Source: Chloromonas sp. AAM2 | Lineage: Eukaryota; Chlorophyta; Chlorophyceae; Chlamydomonadales; Chlamydomonadaceae | DNA length: 40,120 nucleotides | NCBI GenBank assembly: GCA_004335635.1 | Contig: QAXH01001371.1 | Location: forward strand, 1-40,120 | Direction of reading: 5' to 3' | In this document: positions 3,001 through 39,980 of the stretch, piece after piece | Position numbering within the stretch: the first letter of the stretch is position 1 | How the letters are laid out: every line of letters begins with the position of its first letter | Notes under the pieces: model-generated | Seen by the model: the letters and a program-made list of their open reading frames with translations, nothing else | The model's database searches: none | Told to the model about the DNA's origin: nothing | Program-made: the position numbers and the translations under genes

Positions 3001-4186
3001 AGTCTGAGAGGTGCAGTAAGAAGCAACATGCCATGCAGAGTCAGTAGCACAGGCACTGCCCACTGTGCTTGGGCGCACTTTGCAACCTACCATGGTGTTG
3101 CAGCTCATTGCGCGTGCAAAGCCGAAGTCGCACAGTTTGACAGTCCCGTTGGACCCAATCAGGATGTTCTGTGGCTTCATGTCCCTGCATGACAGCAAAG
3201 GATGGCCAGGGTCAATGCCATGGCCACAAAGGCCAGCGCAGGTGTTGACCTGGGCTGACGACTGCACTGTCGGGCCACTCCATGCCATGCCCAGACTGCA
3301 TGGTCCTGTTGCGAGCTGGACGTCCGCACCTGTGAATGATGCGGTTGGAGTGGAGGTAGTGCAGCGCGCGCACCAGCTGCTTGGCAATGCTCTGCAGGAG
3401 GGCATGCAAAGAACAGATATGGGCCCATGCACCATGCCTATCATCATGCAATGCAGAACCAGCTCTGCTGTGGCTGCTGCTCTGCTTGCTGCCGCGCCTG
3501 TTCGCCTCCCTCTGGTGTTGGCATCTGCATTGTTAGATGGAGCACAGGCCGCACCATCAGCCCCAGGGCACGAGGCGGGGCCAAGGGGTCACACGCACCT
3601 GAACCACATCCTCCGGCAGCGACTGGTCGTCCTCTAAAATCTCAAACAGCTCGCCTTGGGCAAACTCTGTATGTGCATGGCGCACACTGACTTCCTCAAC
3701 CACTAGCATGCTGCAGCTATGTCAGCTGTGCGGACAGTGAGTGACTGGAGGAAGATGCACAAGGTGTCTATTGAGCTGCTGAACCGTCCACCGCGCCGGC
3801 TGTTCAGGTGTCCAGCTGTCAGCGCATGTGCCTGGCTGTCTGAGAGAACCCCCACCTGTCACCACGCAAAAGTCTGTCTTGGTTTCAAATGCATCCAGCA
3901 TTTGAATGATATGCTCATGCCTAAGCTGCCTCAGAATCTCGATCTCTTGGCGCAGGTTCTTGATGTCTTTTTCGCTTTTGCCATGCTTCATGATGAATTT
4001 CATTGCTGTGATCTGGCCCGTGCACTTCCTGCGCCCCTTGTACACCTGCGCATGTCATCATATGCGTCCAGTCATGAGTCTGGCATGTTGTTTTGGTGGT
4101 CTGGCAGCACCAAAGGCCTGCATGCAAGAACAGACCTTGCCAAAAGACCCTTCCCCCACAAGGTCGATGATGTGGTAGTTCTCCAT
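1..4186 (-). CDS. FUSED-type Ser/Thr protein kinase (STK36/TIO family), C-terminus off window
   Basis: Exons on the minus strand: 4186-4136, 4045-3856, 3666-3599, 3391-3330, 3184-3091, 2899-2825, 2489-2334, 2078-1929, 1732-1609, 1443-1213, 1021-876, 772-646, 237-<1. All junctions are GT-AG and in phase, giving at least 570 residues. The N-terminus starts [17 protein letters not shown]. The kinase domain (about residues 4-257) is complete: glycine loop G11-G16, ATP lysine K33, helix-C E51, catalytic HRD with D125, DFG 143-145, and GTPLYMAPE ending at E170. The [18 protein letters not shown] segment is typical of FUSED kinases. After about residue 290 the chain is Ala/Pro/Thr-rich and then helical; the family usually has a long ARM-like C-terminal part, which is mostly outside. 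Known family roles are hedgehog signalling and cilia in animals, and phragmoplast/cytokinesis in plants. An active kinase is expected. Two tandem repeats duplicate splice junctions (390-674, 2450-2637). Confidence 0.9.
390..674 (-). repeat. 57-bp tandem repeat, five copies, carrying a splice donor
   Basis: There are five head-to-tail copies: 390-446, 447-503, 504-560, 561-617 and 618-674. Read on the minus strand, each copy holds the last codons of FUSED exon 12 (VECFKKAEA) followed by a splice donor. Copies alternate GTGAGC, GTTAGC, GTGAGC, GTTAGC, GTGAGC, so the array is a 114-bp dimer repeated. The GTTAGC copies put a TAG stop in the reading frame, so the array cannot be one long coding exon. 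The donor nearest exon 12 (ending at 646) joins in phase to the exon starting at 237. Confidence 0.95.
2450..2637 (-). repeat. 61-bp tandem repeat, about three copies, carrying a splice acceptor
   Basis: About three direct copies of a 61-bp unit lie here. On the minus strand each has the pyrimidine-rich CTTCCCTATAG acceptor and the first codons of FUSED exon 7 ([13 protein letters not shown]). Only the copy nearest the rest of the exon (acceptor at 2490) gives an open frame: 61 is not a multiple of three, and reading on from either upstream acceptor meets TGA at the next copy. The array is therefore intronic apart from its last copy. Confidence 0.95.
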
Positions 4187-18007: not shown

Positions 18008-18960
18008 CCTGCCTTGGAATTGTGACACGGTAGCCCAGAGGTAGCCCTGTGACGCCATGCTGTCTGCACCTCGTGTGCCACACTGGCCATGCCTGTGCCA
18101 AACTGTTGCACTTGTACTCAGACTCGACAACCTTAAAAGTGGTGCCCTCAGGGCACACACAAACAACATTGGTCAGTTTTGATGCTATATATCCAGCTGT
18201 CCTTCCCCATGTATCAGGAGGACGACAGTGAGGTGTAGGGTGCACTGTCTTGAGTACCAAAGGCCCATATTACAACCTAATAGAATCGATCAGAATCTTC
18301 TAGTAGAGAGATCCGAGCCCAAAATGGCCCAGAATGCAGTGCACCTTAGTGAGGTGCTGAGTGTGGAGTATACAACTGAGTATATGGTACTTGCGTCGAG
18401 CACCTGAACGCTGTCGCGTTGGCACATGCGGTTTGTGATGCCCATGCATTACACAAGCCTGTCAAAAAGGAGTTCGCGATTCACCCTGTATGTGATTGAC
18501 ACACACACACGTGTGTATGTGCTGAGACACACCGGTTCCAGTGCCAGTCCCAGGAATTGTCCCAGAACTGGCAAACTTCTGAAGTTGTCATTGTTATGAC
18601 ACACTTGAATGTCTGCCGCTGTGGCGAGGCTATACATGCAACATATGCCAGTACCACAGGTCTACCTATGCCTGCGACCGGAATTTATTCATCATACGCA
18701 TGCCTATGCCTATGCCTGTGCGCAAGGCAACGAAAGTGTACAAAAGGATACTGGGCCTGGTCTGCTAATGAGGACTGCAACAACAACTGCAGTTGAGGTC
18801 AAATTTAAGTCTCCTTGCCCTGTCAAGTTTGCCCTGTCAAGCTGTGTAAGTTTCACGGACTTTTCATGTGACTGCAACTGCACGGCGGTCACAAGACTCA
18901 AGTGTTTGATATAGGGCACCAGACCAGACAGCCTCAGAACGTCTGACACCCAAGCAATGT
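18008..18960. other. Convergent intergenic region with a transposon end
   Basis: This region lies between the stops of the RRM gene (plus) and the helical-repeat gene (minus). It is less GC-rich than its surroundings. It contains one copy of the transposon-end motif (18555-18578) and a TGTAA at 18845-18849, which is the only plus-strand poly(A) signal I found for the RRM gene. No supported coding exon. Confidence 0.5.
18555..18578 (+). mobile_element. Solitary end of the inverted-repeat element family
   Basis: The sequence contains GTCCCAGAACTGGCAAACTT, identical to the right end of the element at 31243-32255. The similarity extends upstream through TTCCAGTG and CAGGAATT (about 18536-18580). 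No matching left end was found within the preceding kilobase, so this is a solo or decayed end. Confidence 0.75.
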
Positions 18961-26545: not shown

Positions 26546-26880
26546 GACGCGTGATGATGGCCAGTGCAGGAGTGTGATGCGAGAGTGTACATGGAACGCA
26601 AGCCCAACAAGTAGCCGGGCTGATGAAGAGTGTGTGGGATTCTGATGTTGGAAGGCAAAAAAGAGCCTCGATATTGTGAGAGGTTTGCAGCGTTGTATGT
26701 TCCCTGATTCATTTTCCCAAATTGCTTGGTGCAAGATTTTGCGGTACTCGGTGTGCTGAGAGACGAGTCTATGGCGCGGTGCTTTCGGCGCTGCTGTGGC
26801 AGTTTGTAGATTGAATAACATATGAGCGCACATTACTTTGTAGTTTTGTTCTGGAGTGGCCTTGGCTGCTGTTGTAGTGG

Positions 26881-26939
26881 CAAGTAGTTGATAATTGCGT
26901 TGGACGTGCTTCATGGTGTGCACTCCCTCCTTGTAACTG
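26881..26939 (-). repeat. Segment copied into the gene 7 intron element
   Basis: On the minus strand this reads AAGGAGGGAGTGCACACCAT and continues through AAGCACGTCCAACGCAA. The same sequence occurs on the plus strand near 31349-31405 with about two to three differences in 57 positions. It is therefore an inverted dispersed duplicate. Confidence 0.85.
26932..26936 (+). terminator. TGTAA polyadenylation signal
   Basis: TGTAA lies 387 bases after the rhodanese stop codon and is the best candidate 3' end signal. It falls inside the 57-bp segment that is duplicated in the element at 31243-32255. Confidence 0.5.
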
Positions 26940-28465: not shown

Positions 28466-28581
28466 CTGCCTTGGAAAGTGTCTGCAGACCATCTCTGCCC
28501 CTGTGAAATGCAGCGTCCTTCACGACTTACTCGAGTGTTGGGCAGGTTGCTCTCCCTGTCTGGATACTGATCAGCTTTGCT
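28466..28581 (+). repeat. 116-bp dispersed repeat, copy 1
   Basis: It aligns without gaps to 35415-35530 in the same orientation, with about 10 mismatches in 116. The shared core includes CTCGAGTGTTGGGCAGGTTG and CTGGATACTGATC. The two copies flank gene 7, about 6.9 kb apart. Confidence 0.9.
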
Positions 28582-29163: not shown

Positions 29164-32100
29164 ATGCGACCAGCTAGCCGCAGCGCATTCAACAGCAGGC
29201 GGTTCATGCTGCTGGCGTGCCTCGTCGTGCTGTTGCTTCATGGTGGCACGGCGTCCAGAGCCTTGGACGTGACCATACCTTCCCGCGCCTCAAGAGCAAA
29301 CTGGCGCAGTCATACATCCACGCTCGACTACAGTCGCGGGGTCATGTCTGTAATCCAGCGCTTCAAAGGTCTTCGTGTCACCGTTCTGAACGACATTCCT
29401 GGCCACATTGAGGTGAGTCCCAAGTAGCTGGCGTTTGATGCGATGCGATGCATCTGAAAGCCAGCCCTCAAGATTTTGTTCGCTGCTAGTTTAAGAGGGT
29501 CGCTGAGGACGGCACGCTTGTTGCTTGCCATATGTATCACATCGTCCAAAAGCCAGGAAGGTGGGGTGGAGCTGTCCAAATCCAGGGCGTGGCCTGCTCA
29601 GGCTCGTGAAGTTGCATTGGGATTAGCAGGTTTACCAGAACGCCTTGACAAGCTGTCAGTGAAAGGCTCTCTTTTCATCTTTACGCAAACCTTACAAATG
29701 CCAGCCTGATGATGGCGGCAACAGCTGCATCAGTACTCAGCCACATTCGGACATCAGAGGCCCGCAGCCGTGACTTGGACTTACGCAGAGAGGCCTGGGA
29801 TGGCTTGATACTGATGTGCAGCTGAATGCGTAGGCCGGGCCTACTGAGGCTCACAGAAATGCAGGGCACTAATTTCAGGACAGCTTTGCTAAGACTGGCC
29901 TGTGATTGCTGGTGTTGAATTAGGCTGTTTTGTATGGTAATGTTCTGGCACACAGCAGGTGTTGGTGAAGGTGGGAAAACATCTTACATCAGAGAGCCCG
30001 CAGACCTCGTGAGAACAGCAGTGGGTAGGCTCTGTCTGTCGAGTTACATTCTTATTGGCCAAGAAGATGTAGGGTGAAACCAATTCCCCCTCACAGGTTT
30101 GATTTTTGGGGCTGACCAACAGCTTCTGACACTCATTAATCATTTCTTGTGCTGCGTGGCAGGTGCTGGCCGGCGTCCTGCACATGCTGAAGACGGAAGA
30201 GATCTACCCCACCATCCTGTACACGGGTGGGTGGCCAACCGCAGCTCATCTTGTCACTGGCATGAAGCAACAAGCATCAACACGCAACGTGAGTCAGCAC
30301 TATGCCATTGTCTTGGACTGTCAATTGATTGGCACAGCAATTGCATTTGGCTCTCATTTGCATGCAGGCCCAGTTGCATTGCCCTTTGACATGGGGCTGC
30401 TATCCTGGCTGGGGCGACCGCTGGAGGACATATCCGCTGCACGTGCGGCAGCCACAGCGCCCAAGAATGGGTCATTTTCCTACCATGTGGCCGAAGTTGG
30501 GACCTTCCATTTCCTGGACGGTGGTAAGGCAGCCAGAGGCAAAAGTGAGGTTTGCACGAGCAAAACAAAATCATGGGCACTCCATCTTCCATAATTATTG
30601 CACGCCAGTTCCACCACCAACCATCGGCCCGAGCAACCCACAGCGTAGGTATCAACGATTGTGTCCTGCTTGTTGCCCCATGTGCCCAGGAGCCCAGCTG
30701 TCTCTTCCGCTCGGCCACAAGGCAGACCTACTAATATGCGTGTCCCCCGAGTTGGCGCGCCATGAGTGCGAGTGAGTGATCACAGGCGCCGCATGACACG
30801 CCCGAGCGGCTGGTACATTCCAGCAGAACTCCCACGACTAACAAGCAGACTTGCAAGCAGAGCAAATCGGAGATGCTGAACCATGCATGTGCAGTAACAG
30901 TTGTCACGAGGTTGTGAAAGTGATGGTTGGGTATGTTTTGATGGTTGTCGAACACGTCCCAGCAGCATCGCTCAGAGATGCTTGCAAACACAGATGGGCT
31001 GGTACGGGAGACTCCTTCCTATAAGGCGCGCATGTGGGCTGTCTACTGATTAGCAAGGCCCCCGTGTGCTGCAAGTGGGAATGACTGATTGATGGCTGCA
31101 GTAAGGTGCTCAACCGTCTACGGCCCTCTCTGCTGGTGACGTTCGTGCACCGAGCCAGTGCCATCAACAGGCAGTTGCCCAAGCTCTATCCAAGGTATGT
31201 GTCCATGGAATGCCAAGCCTTGAGGAGGTGGTCATCAGCATCAAAAAAAAGAAGTTTGCCAGTTCTGGGACAATTCCTGTCAATACCACTGGAATGTGTC
31301 ATCATGATTCTCAAGGTTTGTCACCTGCAAAAGTCAACAATGTCCTTACAAGGAGGGAGTGCACACCATGAAGCACGTCCAACGCAAATAACAACTACTT
31401 GCGCAAATTGCAAAAATTTCTCCTAGTAAGGGGGAATCTGACCGTGTCAGCAAGGGGTGGTGAGGCCCTCTTCTTCTTACTCTCGCTCTGACAAGCGTTC
31501 TAGTCCTCTAGTATGAATGTCCTTACTCTTTGATATTTGATTGCTTTTTCTAGTGGCCAATTAAAACCAAGTAGTGCACAAGCTGAAAGGTAGCCAACAC
31601 AAAATTTTGCCTGTCCTTGTGTTCAACCGTCATTTAATACTGAGTGACACATCCGGTTGTGGGCTGTGGACATCCATGCATCACGACTGATATACTGATG
31701 GACCTGCGAATCAAATGCGAGCTCACGCGCATTGCATCGGAGGCGCCGCTCATGCCTAGCTGCGTACCGCTCATGCGGTTGACCGCCTCACCTATATGTT
31801 TGATAGTGGTCAAAGCTTGCGATGTATCGCACTGAAAGGCGAGTGGCGAACGAGGAGGTACCTCTAAATGTCGGCAAAAATGTTTCGTGGATTACGTAAA
31901 CCTCGCCCCGATTCTCGCCCCGCTACTCACCCCGTGTAGGATAAGCACACACCTATGACACAGTGTGCAAATCACACTTTACAACTACAACACACATCAC
32001 CAACACATATAAGTGATCACTCGCTCGCACTCATGGCGCGCCAACTCGGGGGACACGCATATTAGTAGGTCTGCCTTGTGGTCGAGCGGAAGAGACAGCT

Positions 32101-34827
32101 GGGCTCCTGGGCACATGGGGCAACAAGCAGGACACAATCGTTGATACCTACGCTGTGGGTTGCTCGGGCCGATGGTTGGTGGTGGAAATGGCGTGCAATA
32201 TATTCCAGTGGTATTGACAGGAATTGTCCCAGAACTGGCAAACTTCTTTTTTTTTGGTGGTCGACCTGTGTATCTCAGCATGCCAGTCTGTGCAACGTTC
32301 TGTCTGTTGCTATACCCGTCAGCATCGCCAAGCTTTGCCCGCAGTGCTCTTGCTGATCTGCGCACAGGCAGTCTCTTGTGGCTCTGAGTCCCCACGTGGC
32401 AAAGGCGTGCCAGGACCACTTACGCGTGGAAACGGCTTGGACTTTGCCAGTTGCGCCGTATGACAATCCAAGTCAGCCGCCATGTACCAACAGACGTTGT
32501 CTGAATGGCTTTGTACTGCAGGTGAGCACCACTCGAGGACCAAATGATTCGTTATGAAACGGTGTTAAATGTTAGATCAGGAGGTTCAGACTAACCAAAC
32601 GGCTGATACGCAGTTGTGTATTAACAGCCGGATTGATTGAATACGGGAGTGAACACATGTCCGGAGAGGCATGGCTGGAGAGTGTGGCACACACCGTCAG
32701 GTTAAGCGCGTTGACCTCACATCTGGAGTGGTGGTAATCTTTCCGTCATCTGTTGTAGAGAAGGCGCTTGCATCCTAAGACGTGCAACCAACCTGGCTTC
32801 CCTGGTGTAAATACATATATATATACCAACCAGCTGATTATTTATGGCTCTGTTTGTTTTTTTTGCTTGGTATCAAACAACACCTCCAAACCCTTTGCCT
32901 CGTTGCCTTGCCACAGGGTCATATTCGTGGATGGAACACCAAGAAAGCCATGGTGAGGAGAGGGGAGCAGGAAGCCCCACGCAAACAGCAGGCCAACATC
33001 CTTGGTCATGATGATTAGTACCGCCATGACTGATTGCCCCTCGGCCTGACAACACAGCTCCCTTACAAGGCCAAAATACTGTAATGCTATCTGGAACGTA
33101 TGAGCGTGGCCCTGTATCATTTGCCCGTAATCCCTGCCTGCTGATGACTGACAGGGCTTCACTCGCGACTATGCACATCTGTGGAGACGTCTTCTAGAGC
33201 TTATGCATCAGGAAAACAGTGAGTTGCCCACACACCATTAAAAAAACGTTTGCCAGTTCTGGGTCAATTTCATGTGTGGTAGTGTAGCTGGTTGTAATGC
33301 GTCATCTGGCACTGAATGGTGGTGATGGCTCATGTTGGTAGGCGGTGTGGCGACTGCCAATACTGGGACATGGGTCTGGATCAATTCTGAAACATCGTCC
33401 TTGACAAACACACAATGAAGGACTCCATGACAACACAGGTCCAACATGCTGAAGCACACAGCCAACAAACAGCAACACATGCTGATAAGCAGCCAACACA
33501 CAGGGTCAGTCATCCTCATGCAGGACATGATCGCATGTCGCCCTGTTGACTGAGGCTTTTTCTTGCGCAGCCTCTCTCGCACTTCTCTTGGCAGGTCTTA
33601 AAAGCCCTTGCGGTACAACCGGGAGTCACACAAGAATTGTCCCAGAACTGGCAAACTTGTTTTTTGCAGGCCGCGTGTATGTATTTTTGTCTGAGTGTCT
33701 TACCCATGGCGTACTGGAAACGGTCCTCACGTCTCGCACTCTCGCCCCACTGTGAAGTTCGATGCTGTCCCGGTAGCATTGGCGCGCTGCAAGTTACCAG
33801 TGCTGGACCTTGCGTTACGACCGACCTTGGCTTGGCCGCCGCAGGCACAACTCCACGAGTGCACATCACCGTCTTGGGCAACGGACTCACACGGAAGCTG
33901 GCTGTGCCCAAGGCGCTGGAGGGAAATGTAGTCCACAAGGCAGGGCTGCCGTACCCTGTGAGTGGCGGGGGCAGGCACTGGGCAAATCACATGGGCCAAG
34001 GAAGCACTGGCGCAGGCAAGCACGGGACAGGCCAGCGAGAGGCTGGCACAGGAGCCAAGGAAGGCAATCATGCGCAGAATGTCTCGTACTTTCCACATAA
34101 AGATCCGGACCTACAGTTGAAGTCAATGTCAAGGTCGGAGTTGGAGGGTGGCCGTTCCCACCTTGGCTTTGTGGCCGTGCCAGTGCCTGCCACACGCTGT
34201 CGCCTCAGTTGGATCGCGCGTTATTTCGCCTGCAGGAGTTCTGGGGCTACATGCAACGCTGTCTGGCCATCGTGCCCTCTTTTGGAAACCCAGATTACTA
34301 CAAGAGCCGCTTGTCTTCCACAATCCTTGCCAGCCTCATAACCGGCACTCCGCTCATCGCGACCAGGCGACTCCTCGACACGTACTCGTTCTTGACCGAA
34401 GAGGCCGTGTTCTTGCAGAAAGAGGGAGAAGATGAGGTGAGTATACAGCCAGGTTCAAACTACGCAAGGCAAAGCTCAAAGCAGTCATGCCTCTGATCTT
34501 AGCCAACGGTCCTGGCAAAGCCTGCAAAGTAATAGCAATCCCTTAGACTGCACATGCTCTGCGCTCGTTCAGGCTGCTGCAATGGTGCGCATCCTGTCCA
34601 TGTCCGAGGAAGAGATCATGGCGCGGCGGGAGGCGACTCTCGTTGTGCGCGATCAACTTGCTGAGCGCAACATGTGGATGCTGTCGACTTGGCTGGAGAC
34701 TGCAAGTCTTGGGCCGCCGGAGTGGCCAAACCACCCAGCGCCGCAGCTGACATCCGAGACGCCACAGATCGAACCGTACCAGGATCAGTATGGCGCCGAT
34801 GAAATCGTGGATGAACCGCAGGTTTGA
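29164..34827 (+). CDS. Membrane-anchored or secreted glycosyltransferase-like protein, function unknown
   Basis: Exons: 29164-29412, 30163-30226, 30368-30523, 30690-30771, 31102-31194, 32917-32952, 33155-33218, 33845-33957, 34209-34436, 34573-34827; about 446 residues. The N-terminus is basic and then hydrophobic (FMLLACLVVLLLHGG, 14-28), fitting a signal peptide or type II Golgi anchor. The lumenal part shows Rossmann-like strands and helices: HKADLLICVSPELARHEC in exon 4, SLLVTFVHRASAINR in exon 5, RVIFVDGTPRKP in exon 6. Near the C-terminus, GNPDYYKSRLSSTILASLIT, TGTPLIATRRLLDTYSF and EEAVFLQ look like the donor-site half of a GT-B glycosyltransferase, as in some algal family-1-like proteins. 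That assignment is tentative. All junctions fit in phase except exon 6 to 7, where one base seems to be missing. Introns 5 and 7 each contain an inverted-repeat element. No nearby TGTAA was found. Confidence 0.7.
30596..30783 (+). repeat. Exon 4 source segment of an inverted duplication (188 bp)
   Basis: This segment holds intron 3 sequence, the whole of exon 4 (30690-30771) and the first bases of intron 4. It is repeated in reverse orientation at 32013-32200 with three mismatches by eye: G to T before the exon, G to A inside exon 4 (GHK becomes DHK), and T to C that turns the splice donor GT into GC. Confidence 0.95.
31243..32255. mobile_element. 1.0-kb Pack-type element with 53-bp terminal inverted repeats, in intron 5
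   Basis: The left end is eight A residues plus a 45-bp core (31251-31295); the right end is the exact reverse complement of that core (32202-32246) followed by nine T residues. The end core begins GAAGTTTGCCAGTTCTGGGA. The inside carries two pieces copied from elsewhere in the window: about 57 bp matching the sequence 3' of the rhodanese gene (near 31349-31405), and 188 bp matching exon 4 and flanking intron of the host gene, inverted (32013-32200). No transposase frame is seen, so it would be non-autonomous. No clear target-site duplication was found; the A/T runs blur the borders. The superfamily is unknown. The element lies entirely within intron 5 (31195-32916) of the glycosyltransferase-like gene. 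Confidence 0.82.
32013..32200 (-). pseudogene. Inverted copy of exon 4 of the host gene inside the intron element
   Basis: This is a 188-bp reverse-orientation copy of 30596-30783, 185 of 188 identical by eye. It contains the full exon 4 frame, including the change GHK to DHK. The donor is GC instead of GT. It is on the strand opposite to the host gene, so it cannot be spliced into the host mRNA. In the primary transcript it could pair with exon 4. Confidence 0.9.
33240..33665. mobile_element. 426-bp inverted-repeat element in intron 7
   Basis: The left end has seven A residues and then GTTTGCCAGTTCTGGG (33248 onward). The right end (33635-33658) is the reverse complement over 22 bp with one mismatch and is followed by TTGTTTTTT. 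These are the same terminal sequences as in the larger element at 31243-32255. The interior has no recognised coding sequence. It lies wholly within intron 7 (33219-33844) of the same gene. It would be a MITE-like, non-autonomous member of the family. No target-site duplication was evident. Confidence 0.75.
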
Positions 34828-35414: not shown

Positions 35415-35530
35415 CTGCCTTGGAAAGTGTCTGCAGACTATCCCTGCTCCTGTGAGATGCAGTGTCCTTTAGGACTGACTCGAGTGTTGGGCAGGTTGCT
35501 CTCCCAGTCTGGATACTGATCGGCTTTGCT
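35415..35530 (+). repeat. 116-bp dispersed repeat, copy 2
   Basis: Gapless match, about 91% by eye, to 28466-28581 in the same orientation. It ends at CGGCTTTGCT. No terminal repeats of its own were seen. Confidence 0.9.
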
Positions 35531-35655: not shown

Positions 35656-35719
35656 CCAGATATAAGCTGTAAGGGCATGCCACTTACAATGCCAGCAATG
35701 TCTGAGCATGCAAGACATT
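35656..35719 (+). repeat. 64-bp dispersed repeat, copy 1
   Basis: It starts CCAGATATAAGCTGTAAGGG and matches 39061-39124 in the same orientation with about five differences. Both copies are intergenic. Confidence 0.88.
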
Positions 35720-36821
35720 ATGATGAAAGCGGTGGTTTGCATGGCTCCATGTGCTACTGCTTGTATGAACATGAGGCTGCAGCGTAGAGTTATGCATAGC
35801 AACAGATATATGGCCATGCCATTGGCAAGTGATCACCTTCAGGCCAAGGGTGGTCGAGGTCGTTGATACAACGGCACATGGCAAGCCATGCGGGTTTTTT
35901 TCAAGGCCCTCGTGGGTCTAATGAGGCTTGCGGACTGGATAGCACCCCGAGGGGGGGCCAGCACCATTACTACCGCCGTGTGCCATAATCCCCTTCACTT
36001 GTAGGTTGGACGGGTAGGAGTTTGTTCTTGTAGCTGAAGAGTGCGAAGACAGGGTAGTGAAGACTCGGCCAGGTGCTTGCCGCGCATGTCCTCTCATCGT
36101 GCAGCTAATGAGTCCTGTGAATGGGGTGATGCCTTGCGGTTTGTAGCGCACGACACACCTTTGATGACAAGCCTGTTGCCAGTCAGGACACCGGTCTGCC
36201 TATTGAATCGAAAACATGTAACCAGTTGCTTTCGCAGCCTGGCAGCAGCATCACATGGTCAGTATTCAGTGCAAAGTCAAACTCCAAGGTTCGTATATGT
36301 GTCCTTCTAGACGAGTTCGTGGTCAAACTCTCCCTTCATGTACATTACCCCTTGCAAAAACAAAGACCCGGAAAAACCTTTTTTTGGCATGGCATGTTTA
36401 ACGGGTTGTTCTTACCACCTCAGCTCCTGTGGCCAGTGCTACAGCTTGCAATGTCACCTGCACCCAAGTGCAAGTCTGGACACATATAAATGGACCAAGC
36501 ATACCGTGTGTGTTTTCTATAAGCATGATTCTCCAGGGACCATGGCTTGATGAGCCACCTAGCTGACTGCCGCCCAGGTGTCGCCTGCACTGAAGTGAAG
36601 GTCTGGTGCGCGTAATCGCATGGTATAGACGCAAGACATGACCAAACTACATTACAGCCTCTCGCGACGATGGCCGGAGCCACGTAGTTTGTCTCACTCC
36701 AACAAGTGTGATCGGGGACGGATCTGGCCCTTAGTGTAAATCGCGCCCATGAACGCCAAGCAAGTAGCTTTGCTGGCTTAGCTGAAAGAGCAGTCGTCCT
36801 TCCGGACCACCCCGGAGCACC

Positions 36822-39001
36822 ATGGCTTTTTCAATGAATGTCAAGCCTTCTCTGCGCCCGTCAGCCAAGCAGGCTGGCTCACGCCGTGCTTTTTCAGCCG
36901 TGCGTGCCACTCGCGCATCCCGCCAGTCCGTGCGCGTAGCTGCCACAGCGGCATCTGAGAACTTGGGCTTTGAGACCATGAGGGCCGGAGTCAAGGTGGC
37001 AGCGGAGGAGAATGCGCTCACTCCTCGCTTGTGAGTCTCTCTGACAGCAACAGCAGTATGCCATGCTACTACGAGCTCTTGACAGCAAATTGAAAAGGGC
37101 AGGTCTACGACAGAATCTGACTTTTTGCTCACGCAGCTACACCACTGACTTCGACGAGATGGAGCGTCTGTTCAGCCTGGAGATGAACCCCAACCTGGAG
37201 ATGGAGGAGTTTGACGCAATGCTTGCTGAGTTCAAGCAGGACTACAACCAGCGCCACTTCGTTCGCAATGAGACGTTCAAGGGGGCCGCTGACAAGATCC
37301 AGGGTGAAACACGCAAGATTTTCATTGAGTTTTTGGAGCGCTCTTGCACAGCCGAGTTCTCTGGTTTTCTTTTGTACAAGGTGAGCGTTGCAGCGACTAA
37401 GACGTGCTTTTGTGCACAAGCAGAAGCACAAACCTTCGCGACACCTTCTCCACAGGCTTCCAACTCACCACCCTGTGCACATCCCGCACATGTCACACGA
37501 ACAGGAGCTTGGACGTCGCCTGAAGAACATCAACCCTGCTGTGGCTGAGATTTTCACCCTGATGTCTCGTGATGAGGCTCGCCATGCGGGTTTCCTCAAC
37601 AAGGCCATGTCAGACTTTAACCTGGCGCTGGACCTGGGCTTCTTGACCAAGAACAGGAAGTACACCTTCTTCAAGCCCAAGTTTATCTTGTGAGTGTCTC
37701 GAGCACTGAGCATGTACGCTGTCTGCCACTGCTATGACCATGGGGGACGATTTGATGGCAAATGGCACGAACACCATGTATGAAGTGCGTGGCCGACACA
37801 TCATGGGCTATATTCGTCGATGCAAAGGGTCTCTGATCCGTCGATATTGCCTGTGCTGTTGCGGGGTTTGACCTCTAAATGTTGCCTGCCGCATGCAGCT
37901 ATGCAACATACCTGTCCGAGAAGATTGGTTACTGGCGTTACATCAGCATCTACCGCCACCTGCAGCGGAACCCTGACTCCCAGTTGTACCCCCTGTTTGA
38001 ATACTTCGAGAACTGGTGCCAGGACGAGAACAGGTGGGCAGGGGGCCTGTGGTATGCAGAGAATGAGTCACCTGAGCATAGGTCTGTCGGCCAGTGCAGG
38101 TAAGTCCAGGTGCTGCAGAGGGCAGCACGTAGCATGTGCACTGACCTAGTTGTGCACAGATAGGAGTGCACAGAGCAGCATGCATGAGCTGGGTTTGGCC
38201 TTGCCCTACAGCGCTGCATTGCAAGAGCGTTGCCTTGACCCAGTTAATTGTTTCTGCGATGCTCAGGCACGGTGACTTCTTCACAGCTGTGCTCAAGTCC
38301 CAGCCCCAGTTCATCAACGACTTCAAGGGCCGCCTGTGGAGCCGCTTCTTCTGCCTGTCAGTCTACATCACAATGTACTTGAACGACCACCAGCGGACAT
38401 CCTTCTACGAGTCCGTTGGGCTCAACACCAAGCAGTTCAATCAGCATGTCATCATTGAGACTAACAAGTCAACTGCGCGTATCTTCCCTGAGGTAGGCAG
38501 AGCCGTGCTGTGAGCGCATTGGAGCCAAGTATCACATTCATCAACACATGGTGTCAGGCGTTTGTTTTGGAGTATGCCGGGCGGGTGACCTTCATGTGTC
38601 AGTCAACTTGTGCCATGTGTGAGTGCCAGTGCCAGTGTCAGAGACACATGTGTCATGTGTCAGTCAAGGTGAGTTGAATCGCGGTTGGGTGCCATTCCAC
38701 CTCCGCTTTGCCTGACCTGTGGCCACTGACTCACGTCCTTGAATGTACGTCCTGGGTTGGCCTGCAGGTGCCAGACCACGAGAACCCAGAGTTCTTCAAG
38801 AAGCTTGACTTCATGGTAGAGATGAACGAAAAGGTGGTGGCCATTGGCAAGCTCAACGTTCCCAAGCCCGTCAAGCTGTTCCTCCAGGCACCCTTCATTG
38901 AGCGGATGATCGCGGAGACTGCTCAGCTATTCTTCATGACACCACTGCGCACTGGCTCAGTTGACCTTGAGCCAGAGCTCAAGACACAAGCTGTCTACTG
39001 A
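36822..39001 (+). CDS. CHL27: Mg-protoporphyrin IX monomethyl ester oxidative cyclase, chloroplast
   Basis: Exons 36822-37030, 37137-37380, 37505-37689, 37899-38033, 38267-38492 and 38768-39001 are in phase and give 410 residues, close to the algal CRD1/CTH1 length. It is the membrane-associated di-iron subunit (AcsF/CHL27/CRD1) of the aerobic cyclase, which forms the fifth ring of chlorophyll (Mg-protoporphyrin monomethyl ester to protochlorophyllide) using oxygen. The first 45 or so residues are a plastid transit peptide rich in Arg, Ser and Ala ([20 protein letters not shown]). The di-iron ligand region is intact: [11 protein letters not shown] (about 134-144), DEARH (174-178) and DENRH (255-259), the two ExxH motifs. 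[13 protein letters not shown] and [10 protein letters not shown] are diagnostic. The start has a good context, CACCATGG. A TGTAA follows 47 bases after the stop. It could be either CRD1 or its paralogue CTH1; the window cannot tell which. Confidence 0.97.
38540..38680. repeat. Imperfect short repeats in CHL27 intron 5
   Basis: The intron before the last CHL27 exon holds several copies of CATGTGTCAGTCAA and of GTGCCAGTGCCAGTG-like units. It is degenerate simple sequence. Confidence 0.7.
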
Positions 39002-39060: not shown

Positions 39061-39124
39061 CCAGATATAAGCTATAAGGGCATGCCACTTGCAGTGCCAG
39101 CAATGTCTGAACATGCAAGATATT
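39061..39124 (+). repeat. 64-bp dispersed repeat, copy 2
   Basis: It matches 35656-35719 with about five differences and sits directly downstream of the CHL27 poly(A) signal. The two copies therefore flank CHL27. Confidence 0.88.
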
Positions 39125-39557
39125 ACTACATCTGGCTAGAGAGCGGCGTAGTCTGATGTGTCAGCCTCAATCAATACCTTGACCACTCCTAGCAGCTGGC
39201 ATTCATGTTGAGAACGTGTTGGTGTGAACAGACTAGTCTGCAATGGCCGTGCTTGCTGGCCGTTTGGCACGTTGGCTCTGCTTCGTGGTTGCTGACCTGT
39301 TGTGTACAAGGAAATGTGGTGTGGGGTGTGTTTCTTGGTCAGTATTGGCAGTGATTCCGGACAGTTCTGTTACAACTTACCCTGTGTGCAATTGCATGCA
39401 GTGAGATGCTCAAGTACCAAACACGCCCCTGTGCTTCCTGGTGACTTTTTTTGTAAGCCACCAGCCTGACCTGATGACCCAGCCACTGTTTCATGTAACT
39501 GACAAATGGTAAGGTATAGTTGACGCTTGCTCTTTGAGTGTACAAAGGTAAATAAAT

Positions 39558-39579
39558 GTTTGCCAGTTCTGGGACAGTT
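39558..39579 (-). mobile_element. Solitary left-type end of the inverted-repeat element family
   Basis: GTTTGCCAGTTCTGGGACAG occurs here in the left-end orientation, matching the ends of the elements at 31243 and 33240. No partner right end is visible before the window stops, so the element may continue beyond it or be a solo end. Confidence 0.7.
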
Positions 39580-39734
39580 TTCCAAGCAACCACTGGTTTC
39601 AGTGCTGGACACAAGAACTTTATCACAACTGACAAACATCTTCTTTAGTGTGGAGAAAAAAACGTGAAGCTTGCCTAGCGTAATGCAGGGAGGTGCTGAT
39701 GCAAGCGCTTCCCGATGTATGATAGAGGGATCAA

Positions 39735-39833
39735 GAGTCACACCAGGAGCACACCAGAGTCACACCAGAATCACACCAGAGTCACACCAGAATCACACCA
39801 GAGTCACACCAGAATCACACCAGCGTCACACCA
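39735..39833. repeat. 11-bp minisatellite, nine copies
   Basis: There are nine consecutive 11-bp units of GARTCACACCA, with GAGTCACACCA and GAATCACACCA alternating through the middle. Related ACACCAGAGTCACC sequences occur at 28347 and 28377. No gene is associated. Confidence 0.93.
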
Positions 39834-39980
39834 GGCACACTGCAGGTGACAGCGACTGAAGAGGTCAACTGAAAAAGCAAGGAGGGGGAAGATTGGCAAG
39901 AACATCATCATTACATGGCTTTTCATGGTTCAACCCACGGTACTGCAGCTAGACATAATATCTCTCCAAGAATTACGCGC

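Follow-up and report, generated by a model that had tools for sequence, protein, structure and literature searches.

An abundant inverted-repeat family in Chloromonas sp. AAM2 and a likely repair insertion that can mimic gene capture

MULEs leave a fixed target-site duplication of 8–11 bp, and Helitrons have a Rep/helicase protein and a CTRR end and lack inverted ends. Templated insertions made by polymerase-theta-type end joining are usually shorter than 188 nt, the length of the insertion discussed below. Spy transposons of the PHIS superfamily are described as preferring AAATTT and leaving no duplication (PMC4482050), and the available part of PMC12730594 names no family with the insertion signature reported here. 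The locus of interest lies within a window of 40,120 nt (the whole stretch of DNA that was analysed, G000:C360:1–40120) from the green alga Chloromonas sp. AAM2, and was originally predicted to be a Pack-type transposon that had captured pieces of host genes. We read it as a member of a new family of inverted-repeat elements that insert in an unusual way, and its 188-bp piece as a likely locally templated repair insertion.

Anatomy of the window element

Comparison of the window with itself confirmed the two perfect 53-bp terminal inverted repeats of the original prediction, which are 100% complementary and 906 nt apart. The element, its flanks and the source of its 188-bp piece are arranged as follows.

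30596–30783, plus strand: donor of the 188-bp copy; a candidate exon, unique apart from 32013–32200 among the scored matches
31227–31233, plus strand: left-hand GGTGGTC of a 7-bp direct repeat that may be a target duplication, separated from the A tract by 9 nt
31243–31295, plus strand: left arm; A8GAAG, then the 22-nt core (31254–31275), then subterminal sequence of end family F1
31346–31469, plus strand: dispersed-repeat piece, 124 nt, which includes the 57-bp piece ascribed to the side of the rhodanese gene
31687–31905, plus strand: internal segment, repetitive; 83–86% to L003, L004 and L005 (L005 in part) and 78% to L131
31921–32008, minus strand: sequence continuing the F1 right arm inward, beyond the 188-bp copy that divides it from the arm end
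32013–32200, minus strand: inverted copy of 30596–30783, 185 of 188 nt identical (98%), inside the right arm, with TATAT on each side
32202–32254, minus strand: right arm, with its core at 32222–32243, matching the left arm perfectly in inverted orientation
32256–32262, plus strand: GGTGGTC, right copy of the 7-bp direct repeat, flush with the T tract

The segment 31921–32008 matches the inner F1 arm of L004 (C2124:11128–11236) at 72% and aligns with five F1 copies; because it is inner F1 arm sequence, the right arm must be broken after its position 53, where the 188-bp copy stands between the arm end and the rest of the arm. The counterpart of 31687–31905 in the longer members L004 and L131 lies in line with a family end. 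Family DNA matches approximately 307 of the 906 interior nt, and approximately 290 nt make up the remainder beyond the family, dispersed-repeat and 188-bp pieces. Both arms depart from the end family at the same position (~53; 31295 and 32202), and it is the right arm only that the 188-bp copy interrupts. An Rfam search of 30400–33900 gave no match up to E 1.

Two interior pieces had been taken as host-gene fragments, and both claims stood in part. The inverted copy of an exon is present (188 nt at 98%), but it interrupts the right arm rather than lying mid-element, and its source is a candidate exon of gene 7, two open-frame readings of which have no Pfam match above the cut-off; the element would accordingly lie in a putative intron. 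The three mismatches in 188 nt make an assembly duplicate hardly likely. The donor is found beyond the left arm, at a distance of 460–647 nt from it, and 1,229 nt separate donor and copy. The copy has the minus-strand junctions GGAA-TATAT-TGCACG...GATCAC-T-TATAT-GTGTTGG and the donor edge reads AATTAT-TGCACG, with three nucleotides (TAT) common to the donor edge and the start of the copy. A nearby donor, microhomology and a short junction repeat, by which locally templated repair is recognised, are all found at the 188-bp copy. Among the scored genome matches there was neither a third copy of this piece nor a second element containing it.

The 57-nt piece (31346–31402) does have an inverted match of 96% beside the rhodanese gene, at 26880–26936, but since 31346–31469 belongs to a dispersed repeat the match is no evidence of a donor, and the two sites do not form a donor-acceptor pair. 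Of the 58 genome matches to the query (40 of 2,066 candidates scored), 36 cover approximately query positions 98–231 at 95–98% and represent this repeat. The repeat, as seen at 26880–26936 and 31346–31469, begins TTACAAGGAGGGAGTGCACACC and may encode YKEGVHTMKHVQRK.

Elsewhere in the window, 39734–39843 is a tandem 11-nt repeat in which AGAGTCACACC and AGAATCACACC alternate, and further direct repeats pair 28466–28581 with 35415–35530 (91%) and 35656–35720 with 39061–39125 (92%). A cyclase of chlorophyll biosynthesis (CHL27/CRD1 type) is encoded by an open frame at 37063, with 461 relatives at E up to 0.001, several of them named magnesium-protoporphyrin IX monomethyl ester cyclase; the best algal-named match is from Picocystis salinarum (81%, with 74% of the query covered), which makes a green-algal origin of the DNA likely.

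The end family across the assembly

The core, GTTTGCCAGTTCTGGGACAATT, has six matches in the window at up to three mismatches, compared with 0.01 expected from shuffles. Family features outside the element described above are the following.

18555–18576, minus strand: family end (core match) with no partner nearby
33248–33656: second family element in the window, 409 nt from core to core
39558–39637: 80-nt family element, its right core degenerate (6 mismatches)

Over the assembly (74,379,869 bases in 2,324 contigs), the 22-nt core has 5,069 matches at up to two mismatches, 2,543 on one strand and 2,526 on the other, versus 0 for the reversed control. The end is therefore not confined to this locus, an outcome that would have refuted the original prediction; the element belongs to a large inverted-repeat family, and at approximately 68 ends per Mb the family is a prominent repeat of this genome. 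A profile was made of 127 ends that had been selected for up to three core mismatches, so that the conservation of the core itself is by choice. In these ends A accounts for 68–89% at positions −10 to −4 and G for 69% at −3, and C precedes the tract in 72. Because A is high from −10 to −4 and is down to 26% by −13, the A tract is itself part of the repeated end, which comprises an A-rich tract, GAW and the 22-nt core.

Paired inverted ends, sought as the original prediction proposed, occur elsewhere in the genome: the 61 pairs of neighbouring ends within 2 kb comprise 36 in +− order (inverted, tracts outside), 12 in −+, nine in ++ and four in −−, in a non-random sample drawn from match lists (the first 30 places of the core search, and 30 of 66 of another list) and from similarity searches, ten pairs being chosen because a match list already showed them paired. 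The +− pairs in this sample measure 65–1,320 nt from core to core. No +− partner was present in the DNA examined for 57 of 129 distinct ends, many loci stopping within 1.5 kb of the end. The virus contigs searched gave 0 matches, and the prokaryote contigs searched contained one 19-nt match, which is about chance level by estimate. The string GCCAGTTCTGGGACA occurs in none of the papers searched, and topic searches yielded no recognised description of the family.

End families, sorted by eye, can be recognised just inside the core and pair freely with one another. Copies leave their end family at varying distances from the core, as seen in F1 and in the L018 family. Inner stretches of one and the same end family are missing from some copies. 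Five of 41 pairs were covered to at least 90% by another single element, none of them reciprocally, and none of the four elements searched whole had a near-identical full-length second copy, some of which assembly gaps may hide. The near-full matches of L017 are at 74–79% only. With regard to simple MITE amplification, eleven matches to L090 of 98–100% start in or near the left end and all end 102–140 nt into the query; a reading of these as one-off chimeras was dropped because one of them, L100, runs into N at this point, so that the common stop may be an assembly limit. N runs were seen in or beside the family copies L100, L032, L130 and L004, and the assembly may therefore contain fewer of the most similar copies than the genome does.

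Two coding remnants were identified, both of which read toward a core and have no Pfam match above the cut-off. One, ‘RVFPGQ...NKRLQA’, occurs in copies of the L018 family, and the stretch containing it gave 23 matches from 22 candidates, its own copy included. The other, ‘MSNEA...ITDF’ (65 residues), has at least 150 matches, most of them free of stops, from a search in which 150 of 313 candidates were scored; it also matches one database protein of 66 amino acids at 79%. The profile matches included no transposase or nuclease tied to family ends: RVT_1 has 41 matches in the genome and DDE_Tnp_4 (PF13359) has one, none tied to an end, and the MULE profile PF10551 has 0 in six frames of the assembly, a search in which an intron-broken domain could be missed. 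Beyond the element at L126, positions 3047–3910 contain a faintly transposase-like open frame of 288 residues, with weak DUF4371 and RVT_3 scores below the cut-off.

Insertion sites

Alignment of borders, proposed as a check of the original prediction, gave no target-site duplication of fixed length in 36 pairs: there was no clear flank identity at any of 38 offsets (largest z 2.2). The constant-length duplication expected of a TIR DNA transposon or MITE is thus not evident in these pairs. Direct repeats displaced from the tract by 0–27 nt were found instead. With every offset up to 36 nt from the tract allowed, 12 of 41 pairs reached a score of 7, versus a mean of 3.0 in a control in which the right flanks were dealt out anew (p 5e-5); the other 29 pairs have no direct repeat reaching this score. 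The clearest repeats are those of L047 (14 bp, perfect, touching the tract at one end of the element and 7 nt away from it at the other), L098 (18 bp, three mismatches), L035 and L101. At the tract edge, the largest counts among the 41 pairs were seven for 2 nt (2.6 expected), three for 3 nt (0.6 expected) and one for 4 or 5 nt. A fixed duplication of 2–5 bp at the tract edge is unconvincing, since the best of 36 offset combinations was chosen; a slight chance remains for one of 2–3 bp whose offset is not fixed.

Insertion into a host repeat could be followed directly at L027, where the site reads AAATACTGCGA, with CCACCAAATACCACCAATACTACC before the element and GGTAGTACCACTGCGACCTTTATGGT after it. 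The host repeat runs uninterrupted across the site in nine other copies (all nine that were read, of 11 listed), typically as CCACCAAATACTGCGAACTTTACGGT, and L027 is therefore an added two-ended unit. It is accompanied by approximately 5–13 extra nt on each side, and the duplication is 2 to 6 bp, depending on the reading. A 7-nt inverted match links the stretches outside its tracts, and a 2-bp duplication is one possible reading of the site. At L040 the right flank is a repeat, the upstream part of which, in two other fetched copies (L070 and L071), is unlike the left flank; this insertion may be unclean. Taken together, the absence of a fixed duplication, the displaced and variable repeats and the mixed end families form an insertion signature that fits no superfamily tested.

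Origin of the 188-bp copy and relation to known systems

We consider it somewhat more probable than otherwise (approximately 0.55) that the window element is a member of the abundant inverted-repeat family to which the 188-bp piece was added in place by template-switching break repair. Family elements would transpose in the form of DNA units with two ends, at each of which a protein would bind the core; the target would be cut with a variable stagger and a few filler bases would be added on joining, with direct repeats of variable length and no fixed duplication as the result. The geometry and junctions suggest that a family member arrived first and that a break in its right arm followed as a separate event. 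A 3′ end finishing in TAT could then have paired with TAT at the donor edge, 1.2 kb away on the other strand, and, after some 188 nt had been copied, the end would have rejoined the arm, leaving TATAT on both sides. This account is supported by the abundant ends with their clean control, the end profile, the excess of +− pairs and the two-ended insertion at L027, together with the mixed interior, the local inverted copy with its TATAT flanks and the displaced repeats above control. Counting against it are the lack of an enzyme tied to the ends, the 57 partnerless ends, the 29 pairs below score 7, the four elements without a near-identical full-length second copy and the flanks of L040; moreover, the departure of both arms at ~53 is unexplained if the right arm alone was broken. 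A single in-place event and capture followed by a short hop are hard to tell apart with certainty.

Acquisition of the host piece by the transposon itself, through gap repair or a template switch during transposition, after which the piece was carried along, appears unlikely. Perfect arms do surround DNA that has one other assembly match, at 98% identity, among those scored, but the donor adjoins the element, the copy lies within an arm and no second element among the scored matches holds the piece. A near-identical nearby match of at least 50 bp was found in one of 36 testable pairs, the window element itself; these were the pairs, of 41, with an interior long enough, flanks reached at least 600 nt on both sides in 21 and fell below 300 nt on either in 11, and distant donors were sought for few elements. 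Lesser matches in this test were 17 near-identical nt in L034 and 86 nt at 81% in L089. The predicted Pack-type capture is not supported, one fragment being a dispersed repeat, other interior sequence being family DNA, and the single-copy piece being local, in-arm and bounded by repair-like junctions. The duplication test, the MULE profile without a match and the donor geometry are the grounds for not filing the element as a Pack-MULE. More generally, a repair patch within an abundant inverted-repeat element can mimic gene capture, which calls for caution in Pack-type annotation.

The varying distances at which copies leave their end family, the promiscuous pairing of end families (sorted by eye), the partnerless ends, the variable direct repeats and the two coding remnants reading toward a core would also be expected if the ends were 3′ ends of RNAs, with reverse transcription starting from the conserved tail at either side of a break and giving two cDNAs head to head, an insertion that would resemble an inverted-repeat transposon in appearance only. 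We regard this route as distinctly unlikely: the sense 3′ end bears T8 rather than poly(A), none of the 41 RVT_1 matches is tied to an end, some copies skip internally within the same family instead of being simply truncated, and in L027 a unit with two ends sits in a host repeat. It is more doubtful still that there exists a whole class of pseudo-transposons in which two different RNAs are reverse-transcribed head to head from a conserved tail at breaks, each insertion thus being a unique chimera with inverted ‘ends’; if this were true, about 5,000 of these ends would lie behind the present form of the alga’s introns and intergenic DNA. Least probable of these alternatives is an ordinary DNA transposon superfamily with a short fixed duplication hidden from view, its true termini lying some nucleotides outside the A tract. 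The frequent C before the tract, the 7-nt inverted match and possible 2-bp duplication at L027, and the 2 nt common to seven of 41 pairs (2.6 expected, at the best of 36 offsets) are in its favour, but the 36 pairs have no clear enrichment at a fixed offset and the perfect 14-bp repeat of L047 abuts the tract at one end of the element while 7 nt lie between them at the other.

With respect to known systems, the inverted ends of the family speak against a Helitron. Non-LTR elements make variable-length duplications by target priming; in this family an excess of direct repeats is seen in 12 of 41 pairs, with 29 below the score. TIR MITEs are similar in being numerous and short, with conserved inverted ends as their best-shared part; here, however, end families mix, interiors vary from copy to copy and direct repeats are variable and displaced. 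The family resembles Spy in having no fixed target duplication and in its A-rich left and T-rich right flanks, but Spy inserts within AAATTT (PMC4482050), whereas the A8GAW tract belongs to the repeated end. DDE_Tnp_4 has one match in this genome. Pack-MULEs and other Pack-TYPE elements share with the window element inverted ends that enclose DNA found elsewhere in the host; they differ from it in that the window family has neither a fixed duplication nor a MULE domain match in the assembly, and in that the single-copy piece is local and inside an arm, the other identified interior being repetitive or family DNA. Although 188 nt is long for an insertion of the polymerase-theta type, the 188-bp copy is similar to such end-joining insertions with respect to its inverted orientation, its source ~1 kb away, the microhomology at its start and the short direct repeat at its junctions.
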